Source: [Zimmermannella] alba NBRC 15616 (GTDB lineage Bacteria > Actinomycetota > Actinomycetes > Actinomycetales > Microbacteriaceae). From it: a stretch of DNA of 64,000 nt. This document shows, one piece after another, positions 13,742 through 31,776 of this stretch (its first letter is position 1; the number at the start of each line of letters is the position of its first letter). The DNA is taken from NCBI RefSeq assembly GCF_001570905.1, contig NZ_BCSO01000006.1:1-64000 (forward strand), in the 5' to 3' direction. Position numbers and translations under genes: made by a program. A model generated the notes under the pieces. It worked only from the letters and a program-made list of their open reading frames with translations, had not been told where the DNA came from and searched no databases.

Positions 13742-16700
13742 CTAGCGAAGCTTCGAGAACGCCGTCGCCATCCGTTTCGCGTTGCGGATCTGCGCCTCGT
13801 AGGTGGCTGCGAAGACGACGAGCACGATGCCGGCAAGCGCCGTCCACATCCACCACGGGACGCTCGTCCACACGAGCACGGCGACCGCCCAGAAGGTGAT
13901 GAAGGCGTGCAGTAGCGTCGTGACGGCACCGATGAGCAGCGGTGCCTGCATCCGGAAGACGGCTCCGAGGATGACCGCGAGCACGGTGCACACGGCGAGT
14001 ACGATCGCCCGGATGCCGTGCGGCGCAGCAAGCTCCGCGAGCAGCATCGGCAGCGACAGGACGAGCAGCCCCGGCGCGAGGGCCTGCCATGACGACACGG
14101 CACGGTAACGGCGCAGGAGCAGAGCCCCGACCACGAGCCATGCGAGACCGAGGGGGAGGACGAGTGCTTCCGTGCGCCACCATGACGCGAGCTCGAGTGG
14201 GCTCGTCCCACCGACGATGAGTTCGGTGATGGCGGTGCAGATGATGACACCGGTCGTGAGCACGAAGACGAAGCCAGCATTTCGGGGCGCGAGGGCCTGA
14301 CCCACTCGCTCCGGGGCAGCAGCAAGCGCCATCGTGAGCACCCCGAGGACGACGACCAAGGCGATACGGGTGAGGTCTTGCAGCAGCCGTTCTGGTGACC
14401 AGAACGCTGTGGTGAACACGAGGAGTTCGAGCATACAGAGCATGAGGACGAGCGCCGCGCGCGGGGTGGCCTGCTGTCGTGCCCGGGCGAAGGCGCTCGC
14501 GGCGAAACACCCGCCGATCGTGAGGACGACGAGGGCGGCGGCAGCGCCGAGCACGCATGGGATGCGCGTGGCGACCGGGGCAGCGAACCACAGGAGCGTC
14601 GTGATGCATGAGGTTGCGACGCCGCTCCACGCGAACAGCTGCAGGAGTCGACGAAGCGAGGCTCGGGTGAACGGGATGACGGTGACGCACGCGACGACAA
14701 ACACGGCGGCGAGTACGGGGAGCGCAGTGTGCGGTTCGAGGTTTGGTGACCCGAGCGCTGCGACGAGGTGCGGCGTGAAGAGGAGCAGCGGCGCGAGTGC
14801 AGCGTAGAACGCGACGTTGGGGGCAAGCTTCGGCGACGTTGCCGCGCGCGTGACGCTCCACAGGAGCCAGGCACTCGCCATGAACAAGCCGCCGATGACG
14901 GTCATTCGCCAGCTTGCGGCGAGGCCTGGCATCCAGGCCTCGCACGCTGACCAGAACGCCAGCGAAACTAGTGCCGGCACCGGTGTGAGGAGCGAGCGGC
15001 GAACGCGTCGCGCGGCGGGTGAAACCGTGTGTGCATCCGTGACTCGGCTCGGGAGAGCGAGGAAGCTCAGCGTCAACGCGAGGCCCAGAAGGGTGATGGT
15101 TGCGGTAGCCGGTCCGCTCGCGAAGATCGTTGGCAAGGCCGCGCCGACGAGGCCAACCACTGTCCATTCGGCCGGGCGCAGGGCATCAGCCTGCGGGCCC
15201 CGCCGCGCGCTGCGCACGATGAGGACGATGCCCGCCGCGAGGAGTGCCCCAAGCATGAGCGTGAGCGGGGCGGACCCGATAGGCCCCATCGATTCGGCAG
15301 GCCGCTGCGGGAACGGCTCGAAACTCCGAAGGAGGAGCATGCTGATGCCCGGCAGCGCCGTGAGCGGGAGGATGGCGCTGGCTGCCGCGCCGAGGCATCG
15401 CTCGGGCAGCACCATACGCGCCCACACGAGCGTTGCCGCGAAGAGTACGAGGCTTCCCACGATGGCGATGGTGGCGAGCACGGGCAGCTCTGGCGAGTCG
15501 AACACGGTCCCAACCACGAGCACGAGGAACGGCAGCGCGAGCGTGCCGAGGGCCACACCAGTCGCCGTGCTGAGCACGCGAGCCAGCTGCTGGCGGTCAA
15601 AGGCGAGCGTGCGCGCAAGAAGTGCCGTGTTCACAAGCACACATGCAGTGAGCACCGGTGAGAACTCGAGCGGCTGCAGCTCTGCGGACCACGTCATGAC
15701 AGTCACGACCGCGAGGAGCGTGAGCAGCGGCGGCATGAGTGACCAGATGACGGTGCGGGTCATTGCGCCGCGGCCCAGCGTCACAAGCCAGCAGATGCCA
15801 GCGATGACGAGGATCGTCGCCGCGCTCGCGGCGGCGTGGGCGAGAGCGAAACCGATCGTCTCGAGGAGGAGGTACGCAACGGCTGCGAAGACACCAGCAG
15901 ACCGAGCTTGCACACCGGTCAGCGGCGGGGGTGTCGACTGGGCTCGCCGTGCGTCAAGCACCGCCAACATCGCCACGCCAAGGAGGCCGAGCCCTGCCAC
16001 AAGCCACGCGGCGAGCCAGATCGGCATCCCGTTCGCGAGAGCTGCGACGGCTGCCGCAGCGGAGAGTGGCACCGCGAGCGAGGCAAGACGGCTCCGGCGG
16101 TGTCCGACCGTGAGGAGGATGGCGGCCGCGATGAAGCCGAGACCAAGACCGAGACGGTGACCGGCGGCCTCCGGCCAGACTGCAAGGAGTACGCCGTCGA
16201 GCTCCTGAACCGATGAGGTCGTGAACGCCCACTCGAAGGGCGAGACCAGGAGCAGGAGCAACCACACCGCGACCGGGATCGCGAACGTTGCGCTCGTGAC
16301 GATGAGGAGCGGCAGCGTGTGCCCGGCGAGTGCGCGGACTCGGGTGTGCAGTACGTACGCCAGCGCGAGGGCGACCGGCAGCATGAGCGTGAAGACCGTG
16401 TCTCCTACGATGCGCGCCGCAGGGATGTCAGCGGAGAGGCTGAGCGCCAGGCCCATCACAGCGAGCGCAGCGAAGGGGAGCGTGAACGCCAGGAACCATG
16501 CACCGAGCGAGAACCGAGAGCGGGGTCGACGCTGCCAGCTGAGCAGCGCATGGCCTGCGGCGACGCAGGCAGACAGCGCGGCGAGCACACATCCCGTGAG
16601 GAAGAATGGCGCCCCAGCTGAGACGACGCTTCCTCCGAAGACGCTCCCGAGGAGGATAAGGAGGACAACCGCGAGTGAAACGACCGCGGCGGCCTGCAGC

Positions 16701-17794
16701 ATCCGCGGCTCAAAGGAGCGGCGCTTGGGCGGCTGACCGGGAGCCCCGGCCGCAAGACCGTGCAATGCGCTTCGACGATCGAGGACAGCTTGGTAAGCAG
16801 GATGAACGAGCGCGAGGCCAGCCACAGCCAGGAACGCCATTGCGGCGGGCAACTCGATCTCGAGCACATTCGTGAGGCCATCAACCGTGACGAGGCCCGC
16901 GAACGGGAGCAGGAACGCCGACACAATGAGCGGCGCCCGAAGAAGCCCGATGGCGGCCCATCCCAGGTGGAGCGCCGACACCGCAACGAGCGCCGCACCC
17001 CAGGAGATGCCCGTCAGATGTGACGGGATGTTGAGGAGGTCTTCGCTCTGCAAGCCCCAACAATCCAGCAGCAACAGCACTGATCCGAGGACCGCGAGAC
17101 CCTCCGCAGTGCCCCGTAGCTTGCCGCGTGCGAGCACCGCGGAGAGCACGAGCACGGTGAGCGTGAGGAACCCAACGACGATCGTTCGGCCAACGACACC
17201 CGCGATGACCCAAGCAAAGATGAGGAAGACGATCGAAGCGACCGACAAGAGCGCGATACCAAGCACGAGCATGAGGATCTGCACAGCGGAGCGCTTGGGT
17301 GCCGGCGGCACGGGTGCTACGGGGGTGTGCGCCGGTGTCGGGTGAGCACGTGGCGTGGGGTGCTGGTGGGGAGGCGCGCCGGATTGTAGCGCCGTGGCTT
17401 GCGGCGCTGGGTGCGGCGGGCGCCCCTGCGCGTGCGAAGCCTTGGCCGCCACGGCGTGCGCCCGGGCGACAGCCTCCCGCTGCTGGAGGAGGAGGGCCTG
17501 GCCGCGCTGATGCGCGAGTTGCAAGAGCTCCGCGCGGCGCTGGAGCGCACCAACCGCCTGTTCAGAGGCGCGCCACGCTTCGCCCGCTTCCGCGCAGCGG
17601 AAATCGAAGCCACAGGCTGGGCAGAGCGGCGCAGCGACTGGGCCGAAGGAACACCAGGGGCACCTCGACGGGGCGATGAGAAGATCGGCGCGGGGCGGAA
17701 GTGGAATCACGTGTGCTGGCATCACCCGCGGACGAGGCAATGCCGAGGAATGCGCGGGCCGGTCGTCCTGGCCCGTGTTCGTGCTGCCGATCAT
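13742..17794 (-). CDS. Giant polytopic membrane protein with N-terminal zinc ribbon
   Basis: A 1350-residue protein. The N terminus is cytoplasmic-looking with a zinc ribbon (CPWC then CPAC, about residues 45-61) and a coiled, Gln/Ala-rich segment (about 75-120), followed by a Pro-rich linker. From about residue 165 to the end it is an almost continuous run of hydrophobic segments (30 or more by eye). The architecture resembles actinobacterial proteins annotated as 'SCO7613 C-terminal domain-containing'; the function is unknown. The ATG has no ribosome site, but TAGCCT ends six bases before it, suggesting a leaderless mRNA. A later ATG (residue 25) is an alternative. It converges on nei with no strong terminator between. 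Confidence 0.85.
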   Translation of the reverse strand: MIGSTNTGQDDRPAHSSALPRPRVMPAHVIPLPPRADLLIAPSRCPWCSFGPVAAPLCPACGFDFRCAEAGEAWRASEQAVGALQRRAELLQLAHQRGQALLLQQREAVARAHAVAAKASHAQGRPPHPAPQATALQSGAPPHQHPTPRAHPTPAHTPVAPVPPAPKRSAVQILMLVLGIALLSVASIVFLIFAWVIAGVVGRTIVVGFLTLTVLVLSAVLARGKLRGTAEGLAVLGSVLLLLDCWGLQSEDLLNIPSHLTGISWGAALVAVSALHLGWAAIGLLRAPLIVSAFLLPFAGLVTVDGLTNVLEIELPAAMAFLAVAGLALVHPAYQAVLDRRSALHGLAAGAPGQPPKRRSFEPRMLQAAAVVSLAVVLLILLGSVFGGSVVSAGAPFFLTGCVLAALSACVAAGHALLSWQRRPRSRFSLGAWFLAFTLPFAALAVMGLALSLSADIPAARIVGDTVFTLMLPVALALAYVLHTRVRALAGHTLPLLIVTSATFAIPVAVWLLLLLVSPFEWAFTTSSVQELDGVLLAVWPEAAGHRLGLGLGFIAAAILLTVGHRRSRLASLAVPLSAAAAVAALANGMPIWLAAWLVAGLGLLGVAMLAVLDARRAQSTPPPLTGVQARSAGVFAAVAYLLLETIGFALAHAAASAATILVIAGICWLVTLGRGAMTRTVIWSLMPPLLTLLAVVTVMTWSAELQPLEFSPVLTACVLVNTALLARTLAFDRQQLARVLSTATGVALGTLALPFLVLVVGTVFDSPELPVLATIAIVGSLVLFAATLVWARMVLPERCLGAAASAILPLTALPGISMLLLRSFEPFPQRPAESMGPIGSAPLTLMLGALLAAGIVLIVRSARRGPQADALRPAEWTVVGLVGAALPTIFASGPATATITLLGLALTLSFLALPSRVTDAHTVSPAARRVRRSLLTPVPALVSLAFWSACEAWMPGLAASWRMTVIGGLFMASAWLLWSVTRAATSPKLAPNVAFYAALAPLLLFTPHLVAALGSPNLEPHTALPVLAAVFVVACVTVIPFTRASLRRLLQLFAWSGVATSCITTLLWFAAPVATRIPCVLGAAAALVVLTIGGCFAASAFARARQQATPRAALVLMLCMLELLVFTTAFWSPERLLQDLTRIALVVVLGVLTMALAAAPERVGQALAPRNAGFVFVLTTGVIICTAITELIVGGTSPLELASWWRTEALVLPLGLAWLVVGALLLRRYRAVSSWQALAPGLLVLSLPMLLAELAAPHGIRAIVLAVCTVLAVILGAVFRMQAPLLIGAVTTLLHAFITFWAVAVLVWTSVPWWMWTALAGIVLVVFAATYEAQIRNAKRMATAFSKLR

Positions 17795-18073: not shown

Positions 18074-19615
18074 GTGAAATCACGTACCTGGAAGGCCGCT
18101 CTTGGCCTCGTTGGCGCCTGTGCAGCCGTGTTTGCTGGAGCGGTTGCTCCTGCTGCACCGGCTCAGGCAGCCGACACGATTGACCCGAACGCTGCCGTCA
18201 CGCTGAACATTTATAAGTACGTGGGGGACCCGGTCAGCCCGCAGCCGGCCCCGGGAACCGCTCCCACAGGCCTGGACCCCCTGCCGGGTGTCACCTTTGA
18301 GGTGAAGCGCCTCACGAACGTGGACCTCACCACGAGCGCTGGCTGGGCGACGCTGTCGAGTGTGACGGCGGCTCAGCTTTCTGACGGAGACACCGCGAAT
18401 GATGGCGGCGTGACCCTCGGCGGTCCCGTCACGAAGGTGACGGATGCGCAGGGCCTTGCGAGCTTTACGAATCCGGACATCAAGGTTGGTGCCTATCTCG
18501 TCACCGAAAAGCAGCTCGGCAACTACACCGTTGCAGCCCCCTTCATCGTGACCCTTCCCCACGAGGGTGCCAACGGTGCATGGGACTACACGCAGAACGT
18601 CTACCCCAAGAACCAGAAGATTCAGCCGACGAAGGCCGTGAACGATGACAAGGCGACGCTCGGCCAAAACATTGACTACACCGTGAACCTCCCGGTTCCA
18701 GCTGGCGACCTCACCGCCTTCGGTATGGAAGACCAGCTCGTGGCTGACCTCACGCTGGTTGCGTCGCCGGTCACGGTGAAGGCCAGTAACACGAAGGTGA
18801 CGCTTGATCCTGCCACCGACTACACGATCGACACCGCCAACAACAAGCTCACGGTGACCTTCACCGAAGCTGGCCGCAAGAAGCTCCAAGAGCAGCGCGT
18901 GAGCGACCCGGCTCTCGCCGTGAGCGTCGGCTTCTCGGCCACCGTGAAGTCGATTCCGACTTCGGGCGTTATCACGAACACCGCTACGTTGATCGGCCCG
19001 AACGGCATGCGCATTACGACCGACGTGGACGCGAACGGTGACGGCAAGCCGGACCCGGCTTCGACTACCTTCGCGAACCTCGTCGTGACGAAGACTGGCC
19101 CGGCTGGAACGGACAACGCGGCCCTCAACGGTGCCGTCTTCGAGCTCTACCGCTGCACCGAGACCGCACCCGGCAGCGGCAAGTATGCGCTGAGTGGCAA
19201 TGCGCTCACCATGTCGACCGACGCTGAAGGCAAGAAGGGTACGACCATCACCACGGCAAAGGGTGTCACCGGTGGTGCTGCCTCGACCGCGCAGGCCTTC
19301 GCCGTTCCGGTGTCGTCGACGAACACTGACGCGACCGGAACGATCTCGGAGACCTACTGTGTGCTCGAAACCGACGCTCCTGCAGGCTTCGTCCGTAACC
19401 CGGAGCCGATCCTCGTGACGTACACGCCGGGCGAGGGCGGCAACGCTGGCACGCTCACGGCTAGCGTGATGAACCAGAAGAACACGATCCTCGGCAACCT
19501 TCCGGCAACCGGTGCCTGGGGTGTTGGCCTCATCCTGCTCCTCGGTCTTGTGCTGGTGATCCGCGGTATCGTCACGAGCCGCCGCGACCGTGAGGACCAG
19601 CCCACCGTCGCCTAG
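18074..19615 (+). CDS. SpaA-type shaft (major) pilin
   Basis: The covalently polymerised pilus backbone, 513 residues. A Sec signal peptide (about 1-33, ending AQAAD) is followed by an N-terminal domain. The pilin motif VYPKN comes next (K179 is the expected sortase acceptor lysine). Two isopeptide (Cna-B-like) domains follow, the last carrying an E-box-like YCVLETDAPAGF (E432). The sorting signal is LPATG (476-480) with a hydrophobic helix and RR tail. The start chosen is GTG with GAGG six bases upstream. Positions 17795-18073 hold no gene, only the promoter and leader. It heads the pilus locus and is followed by a strong hairpin. Confidence 0.94.
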   Translation: MKSRTWKAALGLVGACAAVFAGAVAPAAPAQAADTIDPNAAVTLNIYKYVGDPVSPQPAPGTAPTGLDPLPGVTFEVKRLTNVDLTTSAGWATLSSVTAAQLSDGDTANDGGVTLGGPVTKVTDAQGLASFTNPDIKVGAYLVTEKQLGNYTVAAPFIVTLPHEGANGAWDYTQNVYPKNQKIQPTKAVNDDKATLGQNIDYTVNLPVPAGDLTAFGMEDQLVADLTLVASPVTVKASNTKVTLDPATDYTIDTANNKLTVTFTEAGRKKLQEQRVSDPALAVSVGFSATVKSIPTSGVITNTATLIGPNGMRITTDVDANGDGKPDPASTTFANLVVTKTGPAGTDNAALNGAVFELYRCTETAPGSGKYALSGNALTMSTDAEGKKGTTITTAKGVTGGAASTAQAFAVPVSSTNTDATGTISETYCVLETDAPAGFVRNPEPILVTYTPGEGGNAGTLTASVMNQKNTILGNLPATGAWGVGLILLLGLVLVIRGIVTSRRDREDQPTVA

Positions 19616-19628
19616 CGTGAGGGCCTAG

Positions 19629-19665
19629 CGGTGACGGTGAGTGTGCCCTGCACTCACCGTCACCG
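19629..19665 (+). terminator. Strong hairpin between shaft pilin and first sortase
   Basis: A perfect 15-bp stem (CGGTGACGGTGAGTG with its complement) and 7-base loop lie 13 bases after the pilin stop and 43 bases before the sortase start, with no U-tract. It probably attenuates read-through or protects the pilin mRNA 3' end, giving more shaft subunit than sortase. This role is inferred. Confidence 0.75.
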
Positions 19666-19707
19666 GCCACAGCACGATCGGGGCATCAGCAGGACGAGGG
19701 GAGCATC

Positions 19708-20568
19708 GTGGCCACAACTCGGCGGCGACACCGCTACCGCTCAACGGTCTACCTCGCGCTCGGGATCCTCGTCCTGCTGACCCCCGTGGTGCTGACACAT
19801 ATCAACAACGTTGAACAGCAGCGAATTGCCGAACGGTATTCGCAGCATGCCTTGAATCTGAGCGAACAGGATCGATCCGCACTGCTCGACGAAGCACGGC
19901 AGTACAACCAGGATCTCGGCGAACACCCCGTCACAGACCCGTGGGGAGGCGTTCCTGACCGGCACTCCGCTGAATACCAGCGATACGAGCACTTACTCGC
20001 ATCGGATGCCATGATGGCCCGCGTGCGGATTCCGTCGGTGGGCATTGACGCTCCCGTCTATCACGGAACGAATCAATCAACGCTCGCCATGGGCGTTGGC
20101 CATGTCTACGGCACTGCGTTGCCCGTGGGTGGCGAGAGCACCCACAGCGTCCTGGCAGGGCACACCGGTCTTGCCACGGTCACCATGTTCGACAACATCT
20201 CGCACGTGAAGGACGGTGACATCATGATCGTTGAGGTCGCGGGCGAAACGCTTGCGTACCGCGTCGATCAGATCAAAACTGTCCTGCCCAACCAGCTTGA
20301 GGATGTCATGCCTGAAGCTGGTCACGATCGCATCACCTTGGTGACCTGCACGCCCTACGGCATCAATACGCACCGTCTGCTCATCCGTGGTGAACGCACC
20401 GAGCTTCCCGCAGACGCGCTGACGCAGAGCTACTTCAGCCCGTGGCAGCCGTGGATGGTCTTCGCGATCATCATGGCTTTCATCGCCCTCATCGTCTTGC
20501 TCATGCGCGCGAGGAAGCGTCACCAGCGGAAGACTCAGACTCAGAACGAAAGGACAGCGGGCGCATGA
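19708..20568 (+). CDS. Class C sortase (pilus polymerase), canonical lid
   Basis: A membrane transpeptidase that cleaves LPxTG pilins and joins them through the YPKN lysine. 286 residues: an N-terminal membrane anchor (about 13-31), a lid motif DPW (77-79) that would plug the active site, the catalytic triad H152 (LAGHTGL), C214 (TLVTCTPYG) and R223, and a second C-terminal membrane helix (about 248-267), all typical of class C. The GTG start has an AGGGGAG ribosome site. Its stop overlaps the start of the next gene (ATGA). Confidence 0.95.
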   Translation: MATTRRRHRYRSTVYLALGILVLLTPVVLTHINNVEQQRIAERYSQHALNLSEQDRSALLDEARQYNQDLGEHPVTDPWGGVPDRHSAEYQRYEHLLASDAMMARVRIPSVGIDAPVYHGTNQSTLAMGVGHVYGTALPVGGESTHSVLAGHTGLATVTMFDNISHVKDGDIMIVEVAGETLAYRVDQIKTVLPNQLEDVMPEAGHDRITLVTCTPYGINTHRLLIRGERTELPADALTQSYFSPWQPWMVFAIIMAFIALIVLLMRARKRHQRKTQTQNERTAGA

Positions 20569-21800
20569 CGCACACACTTTTCGTGCGCATCCGGCTCATG
20601 GTGCTCCTGGGGGTAATCGTGATGTCGTTCGCTGTCGTCTGCGCCCCAGCCGCGAGCTCAGCTGCTGACCTTGGAACCTTCACGTTGCACAAAACCGAAG
20701 GAGAAGGAGACACCCCGGGGACTCCCATCGAAGGAATCCAGTTTCAGCTGCAACAGTTGCAGGGCATATCCGTCACCGACCAAGCCAGCCTCAACGAGCT
20801 CTCCACTCGTGACCCACGGGTTCTCGCCGACGGGGATGAATACCTGCTCGCGGCACCGATCGCGATGACGACTGATGCACAGGGCATTGCTACGGCGTCC
20901 GGTTTGGCGGACGGCGTGTATCTCGTCAAGGAATTGCCGAGCCGGTCAGGCGACGTCGCCTACAGCGTGATCGAGCCCTTCCTGATTTCGATCGGCTATG
21001 AGGGGAAGCGTGACATCGTGGTCTGGGCGAAGAACCAGGCCGTCTCCATCACACTGGCTGTGTCGAAGAATCCCGTCGTGGAAGGTGACGTGTTCTCGGT
21101 CACCGCGCAGGGGACGGTTCCTGCACCCGACCGTGACGGAAAGCTGCACCGCTACGTGGTGGTGGTCGAAACTGATCCACTCTTTCTCGACCCGATGGTG
21201 GGACGGGTGTGGATCTCCTCTGCCCTTGGCGACGTTGAGCTGCAGGAAGGTCGTGACTACACGGCCACGTGGAACAGCGAGTTTCGGCAGATGATGGTGA
21301 CGCTGACGCCCCACGGGCTGTCGATGCTGGCACCGATTCGTCTGCACGCTCCCGATACTCATGTGAACGTACGCCTGGATGGTCGAACGGGAACACCGAG
21401 CTGTCACGCGGGCACGCCCGGCAACAGCAGCAGTGGTGACTCCGCAACGCTGATCTGCGAGCGACTCACATTCATGTCCGCGCTGTTCGTGGACGGATGG
21501 GCGGTACCAACGACACAAGACAAGCTCCTATCGCAGGGCATCTTGTCGAACCCTCAGTTCGTCGACGTTATTGTTCCCAATGCCACAGACGAAGTCGTTG
21601 ACCCGTCTATGCGGCCGGGTTCAGAACCGACGCGATTGCCAGACATCTTGGTCGCGAGCGGTGGGCTGTTTGCGGGAGGAGCGTTGTTAACGGCAGCAAC
21701 CCTCTGCGTGCTGTTGTTTTTCATGTTCACTCGGAGGCGCAGCGACGAAGATGAGGAACAAGAGCTAGTGCATGGAATGAGCGGGAGTGAGAGGAAGTGA
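20565..21800 (+). CDS. Minor pilin with non-canonical sorting signal LPDIL
   Basis: A 411-residue exported protein. It has a signal peptide (about 1-34, ending ASSAAD), a Cna-B-like first domain (TFTLHKTEGEGD to VYLVKELPS) and a pilin-motif-like VVWAKNQ at about 155. The C terminus has the sorting-signal layout (hydrophobic helix then RRR), but the pentapeptide is LPDIL (358-362) instead of LPxTG. It begins at an ATG overlapping the sortase stop and ends within the GTG start of the adhesin gene, so translation is coupled on both sides. It is probably a basal or ancillary pilin; whether either sortase accepts LPDIL is unknown. Confidence 0.88.
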   Translation: MTHTLFVRIRLMVLLGVIVMSFAVVCAPAASSAADLGTFTLHKTEGEGDTPGTPIEGIQFQLQQLQGISVTDQASLNELSTRDPRVLADGDEYLLAAPIAMTTDAQGIATASGLADGVYLVKELPSRSGDVAYSVIEPFLISIGYEGKRDIVVWAKNQAVSITLAVSKNPVVEGDVFSVTAQGTVPAPDRDGKLHRYVVVVETDPLFLDPMVGRVWISSALGDVELQEGRDYTATWNSEFRQMMVTLTPHGLSMLAPIRLHAPDTHVNVRLDGRTGTPSCHAGTPGNSSSGDSATLICERLTFMSALFVDGWAVPTTQDKLLSQGILSNPQFVDVIVPNATDEVVDPSMRPGSEPTRLPDILVASGGLFAGGALLTAATLCVLLFFMFTRRRSDEDEEQELVHGMSGSERK

Positions 21801-24800
21801 CGAAGATGGGGAACGAATATTTGATGCCTCTGCGGAAAATCCTTGTCCTGGTGCTCTCCATCGTGATCATTGCTGCCGGTGCGACCGTACTCTTGCCGCC
21901 TGCGCGCAAGGCTGCGGCAGCGTCAATCAGCGATATGGGGGATTGTGAATTTCGCACCTCATCGACGAATTCGGTGTCTTACAATGTTTCTCGGCAACTT
22001 TGTTTTCTTGATTTGACGGGTATTGACCCGAATATTACGGGTTCCCAGCCGGTAACGAAGCGGGTCGGTGCTTATACGCTGAAGTTCACGTGGAATACGA
22101 TCCGCGCGCGGGCGACCGGTGACCCGGTCTACCTGGAATCTCGCGCAACATACAGCACGCGCGCCGCCTTTGGTAATGTCAACAATGACGGTGCCATGTT
22201 TCCTGGCGGTTCTGGGCGCCCGATTGTGCACCAGAAGGGGAGCCCTTGGACGGTTGCTGACGATAGTTTTGTTCGGTTTCAGATTAGTAATATCTCTATA
22301 ACCGATACTCAAACCGGCGAACCCGTCAACAACTATGCCTTTAACGTTATTGACGCGGAAGAGACCTCGATTGGTGAAGGTATTAGTATCGATAACGGTG
22401 ATTCAAGCTATGCTTCCCTTCCCATCAAGTACTTGACTCCTCCCGAGAATGGCCAGGCTTGTAGCATCCGGGCGGCTGCGGGAAGTGAGGTAACGGGCCG
22501 AAGTGTGCTGGAGCCGCGCCCAGCTTTGGACCGCGACTTCGTCTGTGAAAACGATCGAACAAATCCCGGTTCTTTCGTCGCAACATTGAACAATCCCAAG
22601 CAGTTCACGGTCACGACGTGGACAGACGCCGAGCAGGCGTTTGCGCTTTCGCTGACGCTCGGCCGTGCCGGTGGCGAGCTGAAGGGCGATACCCTCGCGC
22701 TGAACGGTGGCACTTCTGGGCCTTCCGCTTATGAGCAGCTTGTCTATGGTGCAGAAACCGGGTTCGACCTCAAGGTATGGAATACCGTATCGACGGAGTC
22801 TTCGCCTTTTGTCTACGTTCCGCGCTCTGGCGCAGATAAGTCTATCGGGCCCCAGGATGGCAGTACGGTGGGGTATTTTCGAGTTCCGGGTGTGGCGGCC
22901 GATGGATCCCCAACCGGAGCAGGCACACTCTACTATCAATCAACTGGTGACAACGTGCCGGGAGGTAATCGCTCGCTGGTGTTCCTTCGCTACAAGCCGA
23001 AATGGACTTGTTCCGTGTCTGTGGGGCAGAAGGATCAAAAGGTGGTGGATTTGCCACCAGCTAACCCAACATCCACGTTCAAAGCGGTATCTGATATCAG
23101 TGGAAGCGCGGTAACATTTCTGACGCGGAATGACACGGCAAAGGGTACCAGTACCGTTGAAGTGACGAACCCGGACAATCTTCCGATCTCGTGTCGGGTG
23201 AACTGGGTATCGAATTACGAGGCCTCTACGTTGGACGTGACCAAGCTTGTATCCGGTACCGCCTCTGGGTTTCCCGAAGTGCAAAACCGCAGCTATGTCC
23301 TCAACTACAGTTGCACGCTCGCTGGCTACAGCAAGGCTTATCCAAGCTTGCCACTCAGCGGTAGTATCCCCATCGAGCGCAACGCAACCGAACGAATGGT
23401 GTCTCTTCCGCAAGGTGCAAGCTGCACGTTTTCCGAGTCGTTTCCGCCAACGGCCGATCCGAATAACCCTGGTTTGACGACGACACAACCAGCGCTACCT
23501 GGAAAGACACTCACCCTTACCTGGGGCGATAATGCGACGGGTACAGGCACGTACGACAGCTTCGACGGCAGTAACACTCTGCCGAATTCGAGTGTGACGC
23601 TTGGCGCCCAGACGAAGGTGTCCGCAACGAACCGCTTTGACTACCGCGGTGGCACGGTCGACTTCTCGAAGACGATTACGGGTGAGCCCGTCCGAGAACT
23701 CGCCAACACCACTAGGACCTACAACTTCGCATGGGGCTGTAAGGACACGGACCGTTCCGGTACATTTTCAATGACCGTCACCTATGCCGCAGATGGCACT
23801 GCCAGCGGTACAGGCCCCACCCTCACTGATGTTCCCGTGGCGCGCGATTGCTGGGTTCGAGCAACGTCGAACCTCACCGACAAGGAGTCGGCCCGAGTCG
23901 AATCGCTGCCACGAACGATGACCACGAGTGGAGACGCGGCCGATGCTTCTGCTGATCAAGCAGCCGAGTCGGATCCAAATACATACCATTTTCGACTCAA
24001 GGACTACAAGGAACCGTCTGGCGAAAACTCGAATCTCATCACTTCTCCGAATGCTTCCCGCATGAGCGTGCATTTGGTGCATCCGTACCGGTATAAGACA
24101 GAAGAACTGAGAGTTCAGAAAACGCTCACTGGTACGGGTGCCGAAGGTGCCCGACGAGAGATCGGTTTGGCTGCCACTCCGTTTACGGTGAACTACCGTT
24201 GCACCTATGGAATTGATCGGGTGAAGGAAGGCACCGTTCACATCGGGTTGGACCCAACTCAGCCCGGCGTCGTGCCGAGTGTCCCGTTGGGAGCCAGCTG
24301 TTCAGTCTGGGAAACCACTGCGTCGGCCCCGAAGGGGACGAATGTGCAGTTTGTTGAACGCGATAGTTCTGGCAAGCCGGTTACAACAGTCGAAAGCGCT
24401 GACCCCAACGACGCGACAACGAAGCTCGACAACGCCGCAGCGCAATCGACTCCCGTACACACGATGCACGAAGCATCGAACGACAATTCGAACCTCATCA
24501 AGATCACCAACCGCTACGACCAGCGATTGGGAACGGTGTCATTGACAAAGCTCGTTGACCGCGGCGGTATCGTGGGTACGTTGCCCACCACCTACGATTT
24601 CAGCTTCACGTGTGGTGTCCGAACCGTACAGAACGCTGACGGCAGTTATGTGGGTGTCCCTATTGCAGGAACTGTAACCGCCCGAGAAGGTACGAGCCTT
24701 GCACTTCGAGCTACTGAAGGTGACGCTGCTTCGCTTCAGCTTCTCAATGACGGCGACAACGGTGAGTTGCGTGTCCCCTTCGGCAATGATTGTGAAATCA

Positions 24801-27800
24801 CCGAACGCACCCCAGCGAAACTCCCGCCGGGTGTCTCGCTCGTTTCGGACCGCTCTGTCGTCGAGGTGGTCGACGCTGCCTCAAATTCAGTCACAGTCAC
24901 GAACACATTTGCGGCGGCCGGAGCCGGTCTCACACTCGATCAGCAATTCCTTGGCAACAGCAAGCTTGCCCCGGCAACAGGGGCGAACTATCAGCTCACG
25001 TGTGAGAACGGATTCACCCAGGCCATCACGCTCACCCCAACGACACCGCGGACGACCATCTCTGCTGCCTCCACACCATCTGGCACCGCTTGCCGACTCG
25101 TTGAGACCGCGCGGGATGCAGGTGTGCGCACCATAAATGGGGTCACCTTCCCGATCGACCGCACCTCATCAGCATCGTTGCCTGCAGATGGTTCTCACCC
25201 GGGCATCGATGTTTCCTTGCCTGAGACAAACGGCGCGCCTCAAACGATCGACGTGAGCTTCACGGTCGGTGACTCGTCAGTGCTCACGCTGTCGCACGAT
25301 TATCGATATGAGTTTGCCCCCGTCTCAGCAGAGAAGGTTGTGGCTTTCGATGCGGCAACCCAGCAGTGGATCTCGGAGACGAGAAAGCAGACCAAGCGTG
25401 ACCGTTCCTTCACGCTCACCCTGACGTGTGTTCGACCAACTGGCGAAGTGAGTGCCAGTGAAATCACGCTCTCAGCGAGCGAGACCTCACTCGCTGGTGA
25501 GCTTGCCTCCTTGGGTGATGAAGCGGTCGGGTCGAGCTGTACCGCGGCGGAACTTGCCTCAACTACTGCTGCCGGCGTGAAGCTCACTACGGAAGCGAGC
25601 TACAACGGATCACCGGACGCAGACCCTGCTACGCCGTCGCAAGCGGTTGCCTTTACCGTGGGTGCAAGCAACACGATGACGTTGACGAACACCTATAGCC
25701 GCGACCTCATCAACGTCGAACTGAACAAGATCGCGCGCTTCCCGCACAACGTGGATTCCTCGATCCGCAGTCTGTACGGGGCTGCACTCAACGAGTACCT
25801 GCACGATCACACATTCACTCTTGACTGCCGCGACCCCGAGGCCGCGAATGCGCCGCTTGGATCGCCTCTCACCGGAGCGATCAAGGGTGAAGGGAGCTAT
25901 AGCTTCACCGGAGTCCCCTCCGGTTTGAACTGCCACATCAGTGGCGACGGGTTCACGCAGCTTGACCTCGCTGATTCCACAAGCGGACGTGCACTTGAAT
26001 CTCACTTCACAACGTCCAAGGTGGAGTGGATTGTTGACGACAACGCGGCCACGGAACATGTCGACACGAACCTTGGCGACGGCATCACGGATTCTCCGTA
26101 CTGGCTCGTGCCGAGCAATGACAGCGCAACGCATCAGATTGATGTCGTCAACAACTACGAGTTTGTGATGCAGGACGTGGTGCGCTCGAAGCAGGTTATT
26201 GCAACTCAAGCTGGTTTGAATCTCCTGGACCAGACGCAGCCAACCTTCTCATTCACCTTCCGGTGCTCGGGCGTTGGATACGGTGACTGGGCGGGTATCA
26301 ACGATCCGTCTATTCCAAACCCGCTGTCGTACCGCAGTTTTACCGATGCTCCCGTCACGACGGGAACCCCTGCCTCGGGCGAAACTGAACGCTTCGTCCG
26401 CACGTACACCTCTCCGAGTGTGCAAGTTCCTGCGGGCGCACTTTGCGAAGGTACAGAGCTTGACCCGACGGGAACTCCACCGGAGCTTCAGCACACGGCG
26501 AAGTGGCTCGACGTGGCGGGCAACCAGCACGACGGAACAACAATGAGGGCACGTATTGCTGATGGGTACGGACACGGTACGAACAACCTCACGTTCATCA
26601 ATGAGTACACGCGACGTATGGTTCCGGTGCAACTGTCGATGCTGCATGCTGGCTTTTGGGCGGACGCTGATGCACGCGGCTACACGCTTCGCGTCACCTG
26701 TACTGATCCAAGTGCGACAACCGCCGAAACGACCGTTCCCTTGACATCTGCGATCGTTGACTCATCTGTTGCGCAGGCCTCTGCGCCGCAACGAGGTACC
26801 CTCGTCTCGCTTCCTGCGGGTGCAGACTGCTCATTGTCTGTAGCAGACAGTTCAGCACTGGCCCCGCGGAGCGACCTCGAGATGCTGCGTGGTAGTAGGA
26901 CGCCGTTCGTGAGTTTTGGGCTGTGGACGGGCGAAGGAACCGCCTACCCGCCGAACGGGGCCGAAGCGAGCAACCCACGATTGGCTCCCGCCGAGAATCT
27001 TCCATATTCTTCCTCGGTTACTGACGCAATGAAGGACTACACCTTTGCGTTTTCGGTCCCCGCAAACGCGAACGTTGGAGCTGGCCGGACAGCTGCTCTG
27101 ACGGTTGCGGCTGAGGCGGTCCATCCTCAGGCATATGCGGACATCACTCTGACCAAGAATGTCGCCGGCGACATTGGCAGGAGCGGGGAGTTCCGTTTCG
27201 AATCATCGTGCCTTCACGGAGGTAGTGTCACCGTTCGACCCGGTGAATCTTTCACCCTGCCTCGGGTGCCGGTCACCAATCGCTGTACCTTGACCGAGAC
27301 AGATGATGGCGTTGCTGGATCGGAAGCACAGTTGAGCGTGACGTCACACGGTGAGCACATCAAGTTCGATGCTGCACGTGACCTCGAGAACGCCCCGTCG
27401 GCTCTGACTGGCCAGGCAGGGGAACACTCCGTCACGTTTGAGGTGCGGCCAGTGACAGATCCAGCCGACCCAGGCACATCTGGGTCTCGCTGGGCGATGG
27501 ACCTTCTCAACACGTTCCCCGCGATCGATATTGAGAAGACCATCGCAGGTCCTACCACCCTGGTCCCGCCCGATAACGCGGTGCTGGATCAAAACGCGAC
27601 GAGCTTCGAGGTGACCTATGCGATCCGGAATAACGGTGGCGTGGGGGCCTCAAAGCTGACGCTCAGCGACCCGAGCCTTGCTGGTCGGACCTTGACACGT
27701 GGGAACCAGAGCTACACGGTTCCGTCCGATGGCACGATTGACCCAGGCTTCTGTGGATTCGATGCCGCCGGAACCATTGCCCCCGATGCCACGCTGAGCT

Positions 27801-28087
27801 GCACGTTCACGGCATCGATTGCAGAACCGGTTCCGCAATACCTCGAGATCGACGGTGGGCCGGTGACGGTCACCGCGGCCACAGCAAGTGGTACGGTCAG
27901 CGATCAAGATTCCTTCAGCGCTGTGCGTCCCATCGTGGGTTTCCTGCCCATGACCGGCATGCAGACGCTTGTGCTCATCCTGCTGTTCGGCCTTGCGGTC
28001 GTCGCCTATGGGCTCTGGCGGAAACGTCGGTCCAGCCGCGATGAGTCGCGTGAAGTCGCGCCGATTAATGAGCTGGTGCACGGCTAA
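21797..28087 (+). CDS. Giant multi-module surface adhesin, probable pilus tip protein
   Basis: 2096 residues. A signal/membrane segment (about 12-34) leads into a roughly 440-residue N-terminal region of unknown fold. About ten beta-sandwich modules follow at residues near 476, 620, 771, 913, 1044, 1175, 1305, 1461, 1608 and 1781, each opening with a V-x-K-x-hydrophobic strand and each with a cysteine pair. They resemble DUF5979-type repeats. Next come a DUF11-like domain (about 1910-2040), LPMTG (2050-2054), a membrane helix and a basic tail. No von Willebrand MIDAS motif was seen. The GTG overlaps the previous stop; an ATG nine bases on with AGGAAG upstream is the alternative start. The 5' third is AT-richer than its neighbours. 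Confidence 0.9.
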   Translation: MTKMGNEYLMPLRKILVLVLSIVIIAAGATVLLPPARKAAAASISDMGDCEFRTSSTNSVSYNVSRQLCFLDLTGIDPNITGSQPVTKRVGAYTLKFTWNTIRARATGDPVYLESRATYSTRAAFGNVNNDGAMFPGGSGRPIVHQKGSPWTVADDSFVRFQISNISITDTQTGEPVNNYAFNVIDAEETSIGEGISIDNGDSSYASLPIKYLTPPENGQACSIRAAAGSEVTGRSVLEPRPALDRDFVCENDRTNPGSFVATLNNPKQFTVTTWTDAEQAFALSLTLGRAGGELKGDTLALNGGTSGPSAYEQLVYGAETGFDLKVWNTVSTESSPFVYVPRSGADKSIGPQDGSTVGYFRVPGVAADGSPTGAGTLYYQSTGDNVPGGNRSLVFLRYKPKWTCSVSVGQKDQKVVDLPPANPTSTFKAVSDISGSAVTFLTRNDTAKGTSTVEVTNPDNLPISCRVNWVSNYEASTLDVTKLVSGTASGFPEVQNRSYVLNYSCTLAGYSKAYPSLPLSGSIPIERNATERMVSLPQGASCTFSESFPPTADPNNPGLTTTQPALPGKTLTLTWGDNATGTGTYDSFDGSNTLPNSSVTLGAQTKVSATNRFDYRGGTVDFSKTITGEPVRELANTTRTYNFAWGCKDTDRSGTFSMTVTYAADGTASGTGPTLTDVPVARDCWVRATSNLTDKESARVESLPRTMTTSGDAADASADQAAESDPNTYHFRLKDYKEPSGENSNLITSPNASRMSVHLVHPYRYKTEELRVQKTLTGTGAEGARREIGLAATPFTVNYRCTYGIDRVKEGTVHIGLDPTQPGVVPSVPLGASCSVWETTASAPKGTNVQFVERDSSGKPVTTVESADPNDATTKLDNAAAQSTPVHTMHEASNDNSNLIKITNRYDQRLGTVSLTKLVDRGGIVGTLPTTYDFSFTCGVRTVQNADGSYVGVPIAGTVTAREGTSLALRATEGDAASLQLLNDGDNGELRVPFGNDCEITERTPAKLPPGVSLVSDRSVVEVVDAASNSVTVTNTFAAAGAGLTLDQQFLGNSKLAPATGANYQLTCENGFTQAITLTPTTPRTTISAASTPSGTACRLVETARDAGVRTINGVTFPIDRTSSASLPADGSHPGIDVSLPETNGAPQTIDVSFTVGDSSVLTLSHDYRYEFAPVSAEKVVAFDAATQQWISETRKQTKRDRSFTLTLTCVRPTGEVSASEITLSASETSLAGELASLGDEAVGSSCTAAELASTTAAGVKLTTEASYNGSPDADPATPSQAVAFTVGASNTMTLTNTYSRDLINVELNKIARFPHNVDSSIRSLYGAALNEYLHDHTFTLDCRDPEAANAPLGSPLTGAIKGEGSYSFTGVPSGLNCHISGDGFTQLDLADSTSGRALESHFTTSKVEWIVDDNAATEHVDTNLGDGITDSPYWLVPSNDSATHQIDVVNNYEFVMQDVVRSKQVIATQAGLNLLDQTQPTFSFTFRCSGVGYGDWAGINDPSIPNPLSYRSFTDAPVTTGTPASGETERFVRTYTSPSVQVPAGALCEGTELDPTGTPPELQHTAKWLDVAGNQHDGTTMRARIADGYGHGTNNLTFINEYTRRMVPVQLSMLHAGFWADADARGYTLRVTCTDPSATTAETTVPLTSAIVDSSVAQASAPQRGTLVSLPAGADCSLSVADSSALAPRSDLEMLRGSRTPFVSFGLWTGEGTAYPPNGAEASNPRLAPAENLPYSSSVTDAMKDYTFAFSVPANANVGAGRTAALTVAAEAVHPQAYADITLTKNVAGDIGRSGEFRFESSCLHGGSVTVRPGESFTLPRVPVTNRCTLTETDDGVAGSEAQLSVTSHGEHIKFDAARDLENAPSALTGQAGEHSVTFEVRPVTDPADPGTSGSRWAMDLLNTFPAIDIEKTIAGPTTLVPPDNAVLDQNATSFEVTYAIRNNGGVGASKLTLSDPSLAGRTLTRGNQSYTVPSDGTIDPGFCGFDAAGTIAPDATLSCTFTASIAEPVPQYLEIDGGPVTVTAATASGTVSDQDSFSAVRPIVGFLPMTGMQTLVLILLFGLAVVAYGLWRKRRSSRDESREVAPINELVHG

Positions 28088-29005
28088 GTGCCCTGGCAAC
28101 GTCAGGTGATGCCGTGGGCACGGAGGGGGCGGGGAAGAAGCCGAGGTGAACGGCGCCAGTCAGGCACCTTGTGGGTCGCGCTCGGCATCCTCATCCTGCT
28201 GACGCCTATTGTGCTGACCCTCATCAATGACTACCAGCTCAACGCGATTGCGGAGCAGTACAGTGAATCCGTAGAACACATCGAGCCCTCAAATCGAATC
28301 CGGGAGTACCTGGCCGAAGCTCAGGCGTACAATGAGCGTTTGGCGGCGACTGGCCATCATGCGATGCCGCCCAACGACCAGTCACCTGGATTTGACGACT
28401 ACATGGGCACGCTAGACGCGCCGGAAACGAATGGCGTCATGGCCCGTGTGCGGATCCCAGACATCGAACTCGACCTTCCCATTTACCACACGACCAATCC
28501 CGAGGTGCTCTACCACGGTGTTGGGCACATGTTTGGCAGTGACCTCCCGGTCGGTGGGCAGGCACGAACATCGGTGATCTCGGCTCACACGGGCATGATG
28601 AGTGCCTCCATGTTCGACCAGATTGTGGCGCTCGGGAACGGCAGCGACATCTACATCGACGTGATGGGGGAGAAGCTCCGCTACCGCGTCACGGGGCGGC
28701 AGGTCGTTGGGCCGCAGGATGTGTCAGCCATCACCTACGAGGCCGACAAGGACAAGCTGATTCTCATCACGTGTACGCCGTACGGGATCAACACAGACCG
28801 ACTCCTCATTGAAGCGGAGCGTGCGCCTTTGCAGGAGCCGCTCGTGCTCGACGGCGCCTGGCATCCTGTGCTGAGCTGGTGGATGATCCTCGACCTCTTG
28901 CTCATTCTCGCGATCATCGTATACCTCCTTGCGAGCCGCCGGAAGCGGCGTCGCGACGAGGAAGATGACAACGCTTCGTGCGTCCCCGACAGGGTTGTGC
29001 CTTAA
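28088..29005 (+). CDS. Second class C-like sortase, lid motif not visible
   Basis: 305 residues with the class C layout: a basic N terminus, a membrane helix (about 27-47), the sortase beta-barrel with H167 (VISAHTGMM), C229 (LILITCTPYG) and R238, and a C-terminal helix (about 258-283) plus basic tail. The region where class C enzymes carry DP(F/W/Y)G (about 90-105) reads MPPNDQSPGF and lacks that motif. It begins at a GTG right after the adhesin stop (TAAGTG). It may be specific for the adhesin or for the LPDIL pilin, or anchor the finished pilus; this is unknown. It converges on nrdG, overlapping it by three bases. Confidence 0.92.
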   Translation: MPWQRQVMPWARRGRGRSRGERRQSGTLWVALGILILLTPIVLTLINDYQLNAIAEQYSESVEHIEPSNRIREYLAEAQAYNERLAATGHHAMPPNDQSPGFDDYMGTLDAPETNGVMARVRIPDIELDLPIYHTTNPEVLYHGVGHMFGSDLPVGGQARTSVISAHTGMMSASMFDQIVALGNGSDIYIDVMGEKLRYRVTGRQVVGPQDVSAITYEADKDKLILITCTPYGINTDRLLIEAERAPLQEPLVLDGAWHPVLSWWMILDLLLILAIIVYLLASRRKRRRDEEDDNASCVPDRVVP

Positions 29006-29532
29006 CCGCTGCCAAAAGGCACCGCCTCGTGCGCGTTCAGCGTCGCCGGCATATCAATGAGACGCTGATTCGTACTGCCTCGCCACGGGATCTCGAGAGA
29101 GCGTCGTGCAATCTGGAACGGGCCGTCGACGAGCACATCGACTTCGTGAAGGAGCTCAGCGAGGGCTGAGGAGTGCTGTGCCTCACGAAGCAGTGCCTCG
29201 ACGCGGAACCCCGAATAGCACCACACATTCAGGCCACGCTCGTGGGCAAAGCGCGCCAGCTGGGCACACGCCGCAGGCTGCCGACTCGGCTCACCACCCG
29301 AGAGTGTCAGACCCGTAATCACTGGGTTTGCGGCGATCTCGCGCATGAGCGCGTGCGTTGACGAGCAGCGACCGCCCGCAGCATCCCAGGTCGAGGGGTT
29401 GTGACATCCCACGCACTTCAATGGGCACCCCTGGACGAACACGGTGGTGCGCAATCCCGGGCCGTCCACGATCGAATCGTGGACGATGCCCGCGATGCGG
29501 ATGGGGAGATCAGGGCCAGGGAATTCGCTCAT
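29002..29532 (-). CDS. nrdG: Anaerobic ribonucleotide reductase activating protein
   Basis: A radical-SAM activase that uses S-adenosylmethionine and a 4Fe-4S cluster to make the glycyl radical on NrdD. The cluster motif is C36-x3-C40-x2-C43 (GCPLKCVGCHNPSTWD), followed by TLSGGEPSRQ. 176 residues is normal. The start overlaps the nrdD stop (ATGA), so it is coupled. The gene ends against the sortase gene on the other strand. Confidence 0.95.
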   Translation of the reverse strand: MSEFPGPDLPIRIAGIVHDSIVDGPGLRTTVFVQGCPLKCVGCHNPSTWDAAGGRCSSTHALMREIAANPVITGLTLSGGEPSRQPAACAQLARFAHERGLNVWCYSGFRVEALLREAQHSSALAELLHEVDVLVDGPFQIARRSLEIPWRGSTNQRLIDMPATLNAHEAVPFGSG

Positions 29533-31559
29533 GACCGAGACACGGAGTGACGGACACGGTCGCGCTCTTCGGCACGCTTCGCGTCGTTGAAGCGTTCGAG
29601 CGTACCGACGAGGTAGCCGGTGATGCGGCGAATCCGGTCAAAGGGCTGCCCGTCGATCTCACGGCGACCGCAGCGAGGGCATTCATCACCGATCGTGCCG
29701 GTGAAGCCGCACATCGGGTCGCGGTCGACCGGGTGGTTGATGGCCCCGTATCCGATGCCTGCGTCGTGCATGAGACGGACGACGGTCTCGAACGCCTCCG
29801 GGTTGCGCTCAGCAGCGCCATCCAGCTCGATGTACGAGATGTGGCCGCCATTCGTGAGCGCGTGGAAGGGTGCTTCACGGGCGATCTTCTCGTAGGCGGT
29901 GATGGGGAAACCGACTGGGATATGGAAGGAGTTGGTGTAGTAGTCCTTGTCGGTCACGCCCGGGATGACGCCGAAGCGCTCGCGGTCCATGCGCAGGAAT
30001 CGGCCCGACAGGCCCTCCGCAGGGGTGGCGATGAGCGAGAAGTTGAGGCCATGAGCCGCGCTCGTCTCATCCATGCGGGCACGCATGTGGCGCACGATGC
30101 GCTCGCCGAGCTCTTGCGCCTCGTGGGACTCGCCGTGGTGCTCACCGGCCAGCGCGGTGAGCGTTTCCGCGAGACCGATGAAGCCGAGGGCGAGGGTGCC
30201 GTGGCGCAGCAGCTCGCCGATCCGGTCATCCGGGCCGATCGTGTCGGAGTCGATCCACACGCCCTGTCCCATCAGGAAGGGGAAATTGCGGGCACGCTTC
30301 GCGGACTGGAGGGCGAGGCGGGCGAGGAGCTGCTCGATGACGAGATCGATGTGCTCGTCGAGGCAGGCGAAGAATGCATCAAGGTCGCCGTTGCTCGTGA
30401 GCGCGATGCGGGGGAGGTTCACCGAGGTGAAGGAGAGGTTGCCGCGGCCGTGCGTGATCGCTCGCTCTGGGTCTGCCGCGTTCGCCATGACGCGCGTGCG
30501 GCAGCCCATGTAGGCAACCTCGGTCTCCGGGCGGCCAGGGACGAAGTACTCCTTGTTGAAGGGAGCATCGAGGAACGAGAAGTTCGGGAAGAGTCGCTTT
30601 GCGCTCACGCGGCAGGCGAGCTGGAAGAGGTGGTAGTTCGGTTCGCCCTCACGGAAGTTCACGCCCTCTTGGACACGGAAGATCTGGATGGGGAAGATCG
30701 CGGTCTCACCTCGGCCAAGGCCCGCTTCCGTGGCGAGCAGGAGCTGCTCGATGACGAGCTGGCCCTCGGGGCTTGTATCGGTGCCGTAGTTGATGGACGA
30801 GAACGGCGTCTGGGCGCCGGCCCGCGAGTTCATCGTGTTGAGGTTGTGGAGGAGTGCCTCCATCGCCTGGTAGCAGGCGCGCGTCGTCGCGGCCAGGGCG
30901 CGTTCACGTGCGTGCTCCTGAGCCTTGGCGAGAGCTTGCCGGGCAAGGCTCGGGCAGGCCGCGAGGATGCGCTCCCGCTCGCGCAGGATCTCTTCATCGC
31001 TGGCGGACATGTGGTCGGCGAGGGGGAGGTCTGCGAGCGGAGCGGCTTCTGCAACCGGTGCCAGAAGCTCGAGCGCATCCTGCAAGCGCGTCCGATATTC
31101 GCGTGCGAAGGTCTTCGCAACGCCCGGGGCCATGTCTCGGTCGAAATTCGGCACGGCCTGGCCACCGTGCTGGTCGTTCTGGTTCGACTGAATCGCGATG
31201 CACGCGAGCGAGGCGTAGGCGCCGATCGATTGCGGCTCGCGAAGAACACCGTGGCCAGTGGAGAAGCCGCCCTCGAAGAGCTTCGACAGGCTGATCTGGC
31301 AGCAGGTCATCGTGAGCGTGAGGAAGTCAAGGTCGTGGATGTGGATGTCGCCGCGACGGTGCGCTGCCGCGTGGCGCGGGTCCAGAACGTGCTGGAGGTT
31401 GAAGTGCTTGGCAGACTCCGTGCCGAATCGCAGCATCGCCCCCATCGCGGTGTGGGCGTCAACGTTCGCGTTTTCTCGTTGCGCGTCGCTCAGGCGGTCG
31501 CTGTAGGTGATGTCGGTGAAGACCTGGGTGAGGTCGTCTCCAAGCGTCGTGTGTGGCAT
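29529..31559 (-). CDS. nrdD: Anaerobic (class III) ribonucleoside-triphosphate reductase
   Basis: Reduces ribonucleotides to deoxyribonucleotides without oxygen via a glycyl radical. 676 residues. The C terminus has the zinc-binding cysteines (MCGFTGTIGDECPRCGR) and the glycyl-radical loop RITGYLVGT, both intact. The start at 31559 has AGGAG upstream; a longer open frame of 58 further residues is Pro/Ser-rich leader and is rejected. It is expressed with nrdG from a promoter carrying two NrdR-like boxes about 170 bases upstream. Confidence 0.95.
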   Translation of the reverse strand: MPHTTLGDDLTQVFTDITYSDRLSDAQRENANVDAHTAMGAMLRFGTESAKHFNLQHVLDPRHAAAHRRGDIHIHDLDFLTLTMTCCQISLSKLFEGGFSTGHGVLREPQSIGAYASLACIAIQSNQNDQHGGQAVPNFDRDMAPGVAKTFAREYRTRLQDALELLAPVAEAAPLADLPLADHMSASDEEILRERERILAACPSLARQALAKAQEHARERALAATTRACYQAMEALLHNLNTMNSRAGAQTPFSSINYGTDTSPEGQLVIEQLLLATEAGLGRGETAIFPIQIFRVQEGVNFREGEPNYHLFQLACRVSAKRLFPNFSFLDAPFNKEYFVPGRPETEVAYMGCRTRVMANAADPERAITHGRGNLSFTSVNLPRIALTSNGDLDAFFACLDEHIDLVIEQLLARLALQSAKRARNFPFLMGQGVWIDSDTIGPDDRIGELLRHGTLALGFIGLAETLTALAGEHHGESHEAQELGERIVRHMRARMDETSAAHGLNFSLIATPAEGLSGRFLRMDRERFGVIPGVTDKDYYTNSFHIPVGFPITAYEKIAREAPFHALTNGGHISYIELDGAAERNPEAFETVVRLMHDAGIGYGAINHPVDRDPMCGFTGTIGDECPRCGRREIDGQPFDRIRRITGYLVGTLERFNDAKRAEERDRVRHSVSRS

Positions 31560-31725
31560 GACTTCTCCTGGCTCGTGACCCGCGGGAGTCGCGGGCGACT
31601 TGGAAGGTGTGCGGTCTGGCGTCGACGGCAGGCGACCGGAAGCGGTCGGGTGCGACGTTGGCGTGCAGGCCATTCCGGCGGACGCGACGTGATCGCGTGG
31701 CGGAACCCCATGCAGGGACCGCGAC
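31560..31725 (-). other. nrdD 5' leader region without a gene
   Basis: About 165 bases lie between the NrdR-like boxes and the nrdD start. A GC hairpin (CCCGCG/CGCGGG at 31579-31595) is placed just ahead of the ribosome site. No cobalamin-box or other riboswitch core was recognised. The rest of the gap up to tRNA-Pro (31778-31944) shows nothing further. Confidence 0.5.
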
Positions 31726-31776
31726 AACCACAAGATCTAGTGGTTGGAGCGTGGTCGATGCACTAGATACGGTAGG
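31726..31776 (-). promoter_or_regulatory. Tandem NrdR-like boxes upstream of nrdDG
   Basis: The first site, AACCACAAGATCTAGTGGTT at 31726-31745, is a near-perfect palindrome matching the NrdR-box pattern (ACAnnATnTnGTG type). A second, weaker site (GCACTAGATACGGTA) has its CACTAGAT exactly 32 bases from the CACAAGAT of the first. NrdR, the dATP/ATP-sensing repressor of ribonucleotide reductase genes, binds paired boxes about three helical turns apart. The nrdR gene is not in this window. Confidence 0.75.

Follow-up and report, generated by a model that had tools for sequence, protein, structure and literature searches.

The closest described relatives of the locus analyzed here are sortase-assembled pili and giant wall-anchored adhesins. 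The SpaA-type system of Corynebacterium diphtheriae (SpaA, SrtA, SpaB, SpaC) comprises a shaft pilin, a small base pilin, a large tip pilin and a class C sortase (PMC11389406, PMC3297441). The SpaD and SpaH types of the same organism have two class C sortases per pilus, one of them for the accessory pilin, and the sortase pairs are SrtB/SrtC and SrtD/SrtE (PMC12585641); the two sortases of the GBS PI-1 pilus are required for different minor pilins (PMC3166054). The tip and shaft pilins of Actinomyces oris use one sortase, and the residues that follow LPxTG (FLIAG, in FimB/CafA) fix the identity of the tip pilin (PMC11389406). Among the giant adhesins, CshA/CshB of Streptococcus gordonii and other CshA_NR2 proteins combine an N-terminal adhesive beta-sandwich with a long repetitive rod and an LPxTG anchor (PMC10952558). 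The adhesin of Mobiluncus mulieris (5u5o/5u6f) is a single chain of 51 domains, including ester-bond and thioester domains, and its description contains no mention of a pilus (PMC10619420).

Here, we compare with these systems a five-gene locus of [Zimmermannella] alba NBRC 15616, located in a stretch of 64,000 nucleotides (contig NZ_BCSO01000006.1, positions 1 to 64,000) that we refer to as the window. Its composition is that of a SpaA-type pilus, and its two class C sortases recall, by description, the SpaD and SpaH types. The most distinctive feature of the locus, which the preliminary description had missed, appears to be a second sortase that lacks the usual lid and is seemingly matched to the sorting signal of the adhesin.

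Five intact open reading frames on the forward strand occupy positions 18074-29005. They encode, in the order previously described, a shaft (major) pilin (18074..19615, 513 aa), class C sortase 1 (19708..20568), a small pilin (20565..21800, 411 aa), a giant adhesin (21797..28087, 2096 aa) and class C sortase 2 (28088..29005). The shaft gene starts at GTG 18074, with a GAGG ribosome-binding site (ORF finders give 18023), and the small pilin gene starts at ATG 20565, the mechanical ORF start at 20442 falling within sortase 1. The last four genes had been described as joined by overlapping stops and starts. This holds for two junctions, sortase 1/small pilin (20565) and small pilin/adhesin (21797), each with a 4-bp overlap; the adhesin stop (28085-28087) merely abuts the sortase 2 GTG at 28088, and an alternative sortase 2 start at ATG 28109 is possible. 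Scans for promoters and terminators gave results at chance level. Chance or mis-annotation can be ruled out as the origin of the arrangement, as all five genes are conserved in the same order in Corynebacterium. The upstream flank, on the other strand (13742-17794), encodes a 1350-aa membrane protein with an SCO7613 C-terminal domain, and congeners of the host possess larger ORFs (about 1700-1900 aa) locally similar to it.

The shaft pilin belongs to the SpaH/EbpB family of major pilins (NF033902, 299 bits, over the cut-off), and its PDB relatives are 3uxf, 4hss and 3hr6. It contains the pilin motif VYPKNQ, in which the codon for Lys179 lies at 18608-18610 and PKNQ is invariant among 16 aligned shafts, and a sorting signal, LPATG-AWGVG, that begins at 19499. 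It thus fits the major subunit of a three-pilin sortase pilus, a protein characterised by a pilin-motif lysine, isopeptide domains and an LPxTG signal. The small pilin carries a lysine, Lys156 (21030-21032), in the sequence VWAKNQ that is invariant in all 19 small pilins compared. This invariant residue, in a context resembling the pilin motif, leads us to infer that the small pilin is a base subunit like SpaB, whose base role is described (PMC3297441), with Lys156 as its likely acceptor lysine. The window protein has a degenerate sorting signal, LVASG (21648-21662), at the position where most homologous small pilins have LA[SE]TG, and others LPMTG; its membrane segment and charged tail are intact and there is no apparent frameshift. 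Because this signal is LVASG and not LAxTG, wall anchoring of the small pilin by a class E sortase is doubtful, and in this host anchoring may be weak or proceed by another route.

The giant adhesin was initially described as a long rod of about ten modules. A long rod is indeed present (residues 476-2044, 23222..27928), but the count is eleven Cys-paired modules, six of which match DUF5979 (Pfam/NCBIfam). Twenty-eight cysteines are each shared by 33 or all 34 of the adhesins compared; the head region holds three pairs of them, and every one of the eleven modules a further pair. Six modules contain Lys/Glu/Asn triads (483/547/612, 775/839/905, 918/1003/1036, 1180/1252/1298, 1465/1554/1602 and 1787/1834/1905), and among the 34 adhesins those of modules 1, 4, 6, 8 and 10 show little or no variation, whereas that of module 3 is retained in most sequences. 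The retention of these residues in nearly all homologues predicts Lys-Asn isopeptide bonds in the six modules. A structural model of module 1 (pLDDT 70) resembles CnaB-like pilin domains and 5u5o with Z scores of 9-10; its best match is the M. mulieris domain 5u5o/5u6f (Z 10.1, rmsd 3.0, 111 residues aligned), to which a rod module is also related by sequence (E 4.4e-7). The domain shared with M. mulieris is Ig-like and has a proven Lys-Asn isopeptide bond together with a disulfide (PMC10619420), and DUF5979 has been independently predicted to be a CnaB-like isopeptide domain (PMC12617251). Both marks of such a domain are present, the triad in six modules and the CnaB-like fold in the module that was modelled. 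A DUF5979 rod is also present in the von Willebrand (vWA)-headed giant of a corynebacterial SpaA-like cluster (L136), and it is thus the head, not the rod, that sets this adhesin apart.

The head, of approximately 430 residues, precedes the eleven modules. As previously noted, it has no detectable vWA domain: Pfam scans found none, whether in the window adhesin or among 23 homologous heads. Searches with the single window head sequence revealed no convincing match among 60 relatives and 395 genomes of the class, nor did a two-sequence head profile find one in a class draw of the same size (395). The head profile matched nothing among PDB sequences, and an AlphaFold model of the head, built from an alignment of two sequences, had a pLDDT of 37. 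The homologue search proposed earlier, using the adhesin N-terminus, was therefore unproductive when performed directly; the corynebacterial head family was reached only through a search with sortase 2, and related heads occur in 43 of 242 Corynebacterium genomes (species). Four of the 23 homologous heads examined match the full CshA_NR2 domain (PF18651) over its curated cut-off (E 3.6e-11 to 1.6e-7). The window head itself does not match this model directly, but alignment of the window-like heads with the CshA_NR2-matching heads by hhalign gave an E value of 7.7e-65 over window residues 66-286 (21992..22654). The sequence relationships thus place the window head, by way of its homologues, in the CshA_NR2 family of adhesive domains, and the Pfam scan of the 23 homologues rules out a wholly novel head. 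The CshA_NR2 fold is lectin-like (PMC7846122) and in S. gordonii CshA it binds fibronectin (PMC6952806). Since it is a mutable ligand-binding fold that has been shuffled between adhesins (PMC10952558), the ligand cannot be read from the family. The present adhesin differs from CshA/CshB in having a DUF5979 rod rather than CshA repeats and in being encoded within a pilus operon; neither the GEVED partner domain nor CshA repeats were detected in Pfam scans of the window adhesin and the 23 homologous heads. A word search of the CshA_NR2 survey (PMC10952558) returned no occurrence of Corynebacterium, DUF5979 or pilus.

The corynebacterial SpaA-like clusters that we examined provide a direct comparison, having the same order of shaft, sortase, small pilin and giant, and DUF5979 rods in the two giants tested. 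The present locus differs from them in that its giant lacks a vWA head and has no detectable overall sequence match, and in that a second, lid-substituted sortase follows the giant. The early suggestion that the ligand and geometry of the tip are likely new is weakened by the kinship of the head with CshA_NR2, the presence of a DUF5979 rod in a vWA-headed giant, and the wide occurrence of the cassette in Corynebacterium.

Both sortases exceed the cut-off of the class C model NF033745 (257 bits for sortase 1, 219 bits for sortase 2), and they fall into different clades and have different lids, in agreement with the claim that they are two distinct enzymes. Sortase 1 has a DPW lid (19936-19944) together with His152, Cys214 and Arg223. 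Sortase 2 retains His167, Cys229 and Arg238 but has no DP(W/F/Y) lid, the position being occupied by HHAMPP (28355-28372). The DP(W/F/Y) motif is absent from sortase 2 and from all 35 homologues of its clade, which have mostly G[HP]HAxPP-like residues at this position and form a group with support of 100/100 in a tree of 110 sortases. A pilus sortase without a lid has a precedent in the class B enzyme Spy0129 (PMC3297441); in the papers that we consulted there was no report of a lid replaced as in sortase 2. In 32 of 33 loci the adhesin comes with a sortase of this clade; the remaining locus is at a contig end. The third sortase of the genome, located elsewhere, is a class E enzyme of the housekeeping type. 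The pilin-motif lysine, the sorting signals, the two class C sortases, the small pilin with its invariant lysine and the class E sortase together bear out the earlier assertion that this is a complete sortase pilus locus, and the operon is real, of the sortase-pilus type, and probably functional.

The sorting signals vary with the sortases. The adhesin signal, LPMTG-MQTLV (27944..27973), has the form LPxTG-xQTL that is found exactly in 27 of 33 homologues. Shafts encoded at loci with two sortases have LPxTG-AWG or close variants (20/21), and those at loci without a sortase 1 gene have an adhesin-like signal, LPATG-xxTM (17/17). The simplest reading of these sequences makes xxT[LM] the likely signal for sortase 2 and AWG that for sortase 1, and the new element of this system may be a sorting code in which each sortase has its own tail signal. 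Such a code would resemble the marking of the A. oris tip pilin by FLIAG, except that xQTLV would direct the adhesin to a sortase of its own. In the tree of adhesins, the two locus layouts are parted by a single branch, and the perfect association of signal with layout may consequently rest on one evolutionary split. We advance only tentatively, as a proposal with slightly less than even chances, the more general view that the class C clade with an HHAxPP-type motif in place of the lid co-evolved with CshA_NR2-headed DUF5979 adhesins, that the residues following LPxTG decide which sortase is used, and that one operon thereby holds two orthogonal codes, xxT[LM] and AWG, one enzyme serving the shaft and the other the tip.

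Assembly of the pilus would begin with secretion of all of the pilins. Sortase 2 would cut the adhesin at LPMTG-MQTLV and link it to a shaft subunit at Lys179, placing the adhesin at the tip. Sortase 1, which we predict to build the shaft as sortase 2 attaches the tip, would cut shaft subunits at LPATG-AWGVG and chain them through Lys179. Joining of the small pilin through Lys156 would stop growth; fixing the base to the wall would then fall to the class E housekeeping sortase. The predicted tip would display the CshA_NR2-like head on a rod of 11 modules whose stiffness would come from disulfides and, additionally for six modules, from Lys-Asn isopeptide bonds. We regard a horizontally acquired, corynebacterial-type sortase pilus assembled by these steps as the best explanation of the locus, and one that is likely to be correct.

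Alternatively, the two sortases could be redundant in polymerising the shaft, with no enzyme reserved for the adhesin, a possibility that we rate as rather unlikely. In its favour, the SpaD-SpaF pili of C. diphtheriae are polymerised by SrtB as well as by SrtC (PMC12585641), and members of the sortase 2 clade are the sole sortase at 16 single-sortase loci, where they are presumably able to polymerise a shaft. Redundancy is at odds with the placement of the two enzymes in different clades with different lids, and with the shaft signal, which differs between the layouts exactly as dedicated enzymes predict. Less probable still is an adhesin that stands apart from the pilus as a fibrillar wall protein, anchored by sortase 2 or the class E sortase, the pilus then consisting of shaft and small pilin only. 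Most descriptions of CshA_NR2 proteins are of single-chain fibrillar adhesins (PMC10952558), eleven modules are long enough to reach out unaided, and a dedicated sortase travels with the adhesin. The gene order and the membership of that sortase in a polymerising (class C) family argue against this arrangement, as do the large LPxTG giants that fill the same slot in SpaA-like clusters (L136-L140) and the 17 loci without a sortase 1 gene, whose adhesin-type shaft signal suits a shared enzyme in one fibre.

The close relatives of the cassette are corynebacterial. A scan with sortase 2 identified Corynebacterium sp. p3-SID1241, where all five genes recur in identical order and the adhesin, of 2058 aa, shows 35% identity along its length. 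Among the Corynebacterium loci examined, about 16 have this arrangement of shaft, sortase 1, small pilin, adhesin and sortase 2 (L052/L087, near-copies counted once; L088-L095, L097, L098, L103, L115, L117 and L119). At L102 there is no recognisable small pilin, and at L096 the two middle genes are swapped. Other loci, with a single sortase, follow a second layout: adhesin, shaft, (small pilin), sortase 2. L115 contains two DUF5979-type adhesins around one sortase 2, and L118 contains two shafts and several sortases, arrangements that suggest recombination between pilus clusters. A further locus, L105 (G903:C14:66000-85900), contains a 4399-aa ORF that matches the head profile and not the whole adhesin, with no cassette in the examined stretch.

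Both window sortases lie inside the corynebacterial part of the 110-sortase tree (support 100/98), apart from 48 sampled class C sortases of the host family, and close relatives of the cassette are rare in that family. From these sequences we conclude that the cassette was horizontally acquired and is of corynebacterial type; since the best sortase identity is 56%, we do not regard the acquisition as recent. Vertical inheritance within the host family is very unlikely: class C sortases over the cut-off occur in 62 of 400 host-family genomes and some pilus tips there have distantly similar heads, but beyond the grouping of the sortases, the window genome yields 344 bits with a deep head profile, against 98 bits or less in the 15 of 230 family genomes where this profile detects distant matches, nine congeners have no match to the window head, and the G+C content of the cassette genes (58-64%) is below that of the neighbours compared (64-68%). 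Contamination of the contig is argued against by the host-type membrane protein encoded in the flank. One distant head match (L045:13592-17521) is the tip gene of a host-family pilus locus and has a DUF7927 rod, indicating that heads and rods shuffle. Similar two-sortase loci (L046, L047, L050 and L051) are arranged as tip, shaft, sortase, small pilin, sortase. Directly downstream of the cassette, and convergent with sortase 2, lies nrdG-nrdD (anaerobic ribonucleotide reductase; 29002-31733). No match to nrdD was found in the nine congeneric and three Corynebacterium genomes tested, and by this distribution the pair may be a second acquired module.

The cassette itself is not a new kind of locus, and its novelty may lie in the matching of sortases to sorting signals and not in an unknown tip. 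It brings a CshA-type head into the adhesins of pilus operons, and it is a case in which such a cassette has moved out of Corynebacterium. The choice of a tip subunit, and the need of some pili for two class C sortases, are unsettled matters for C. diphtheriae as well (PMC12585641, PMC11389406). On both, the present gene family constitutes a natural experiment, in which dozens of species possess one or two sortases with matching changes in their sorting signals.
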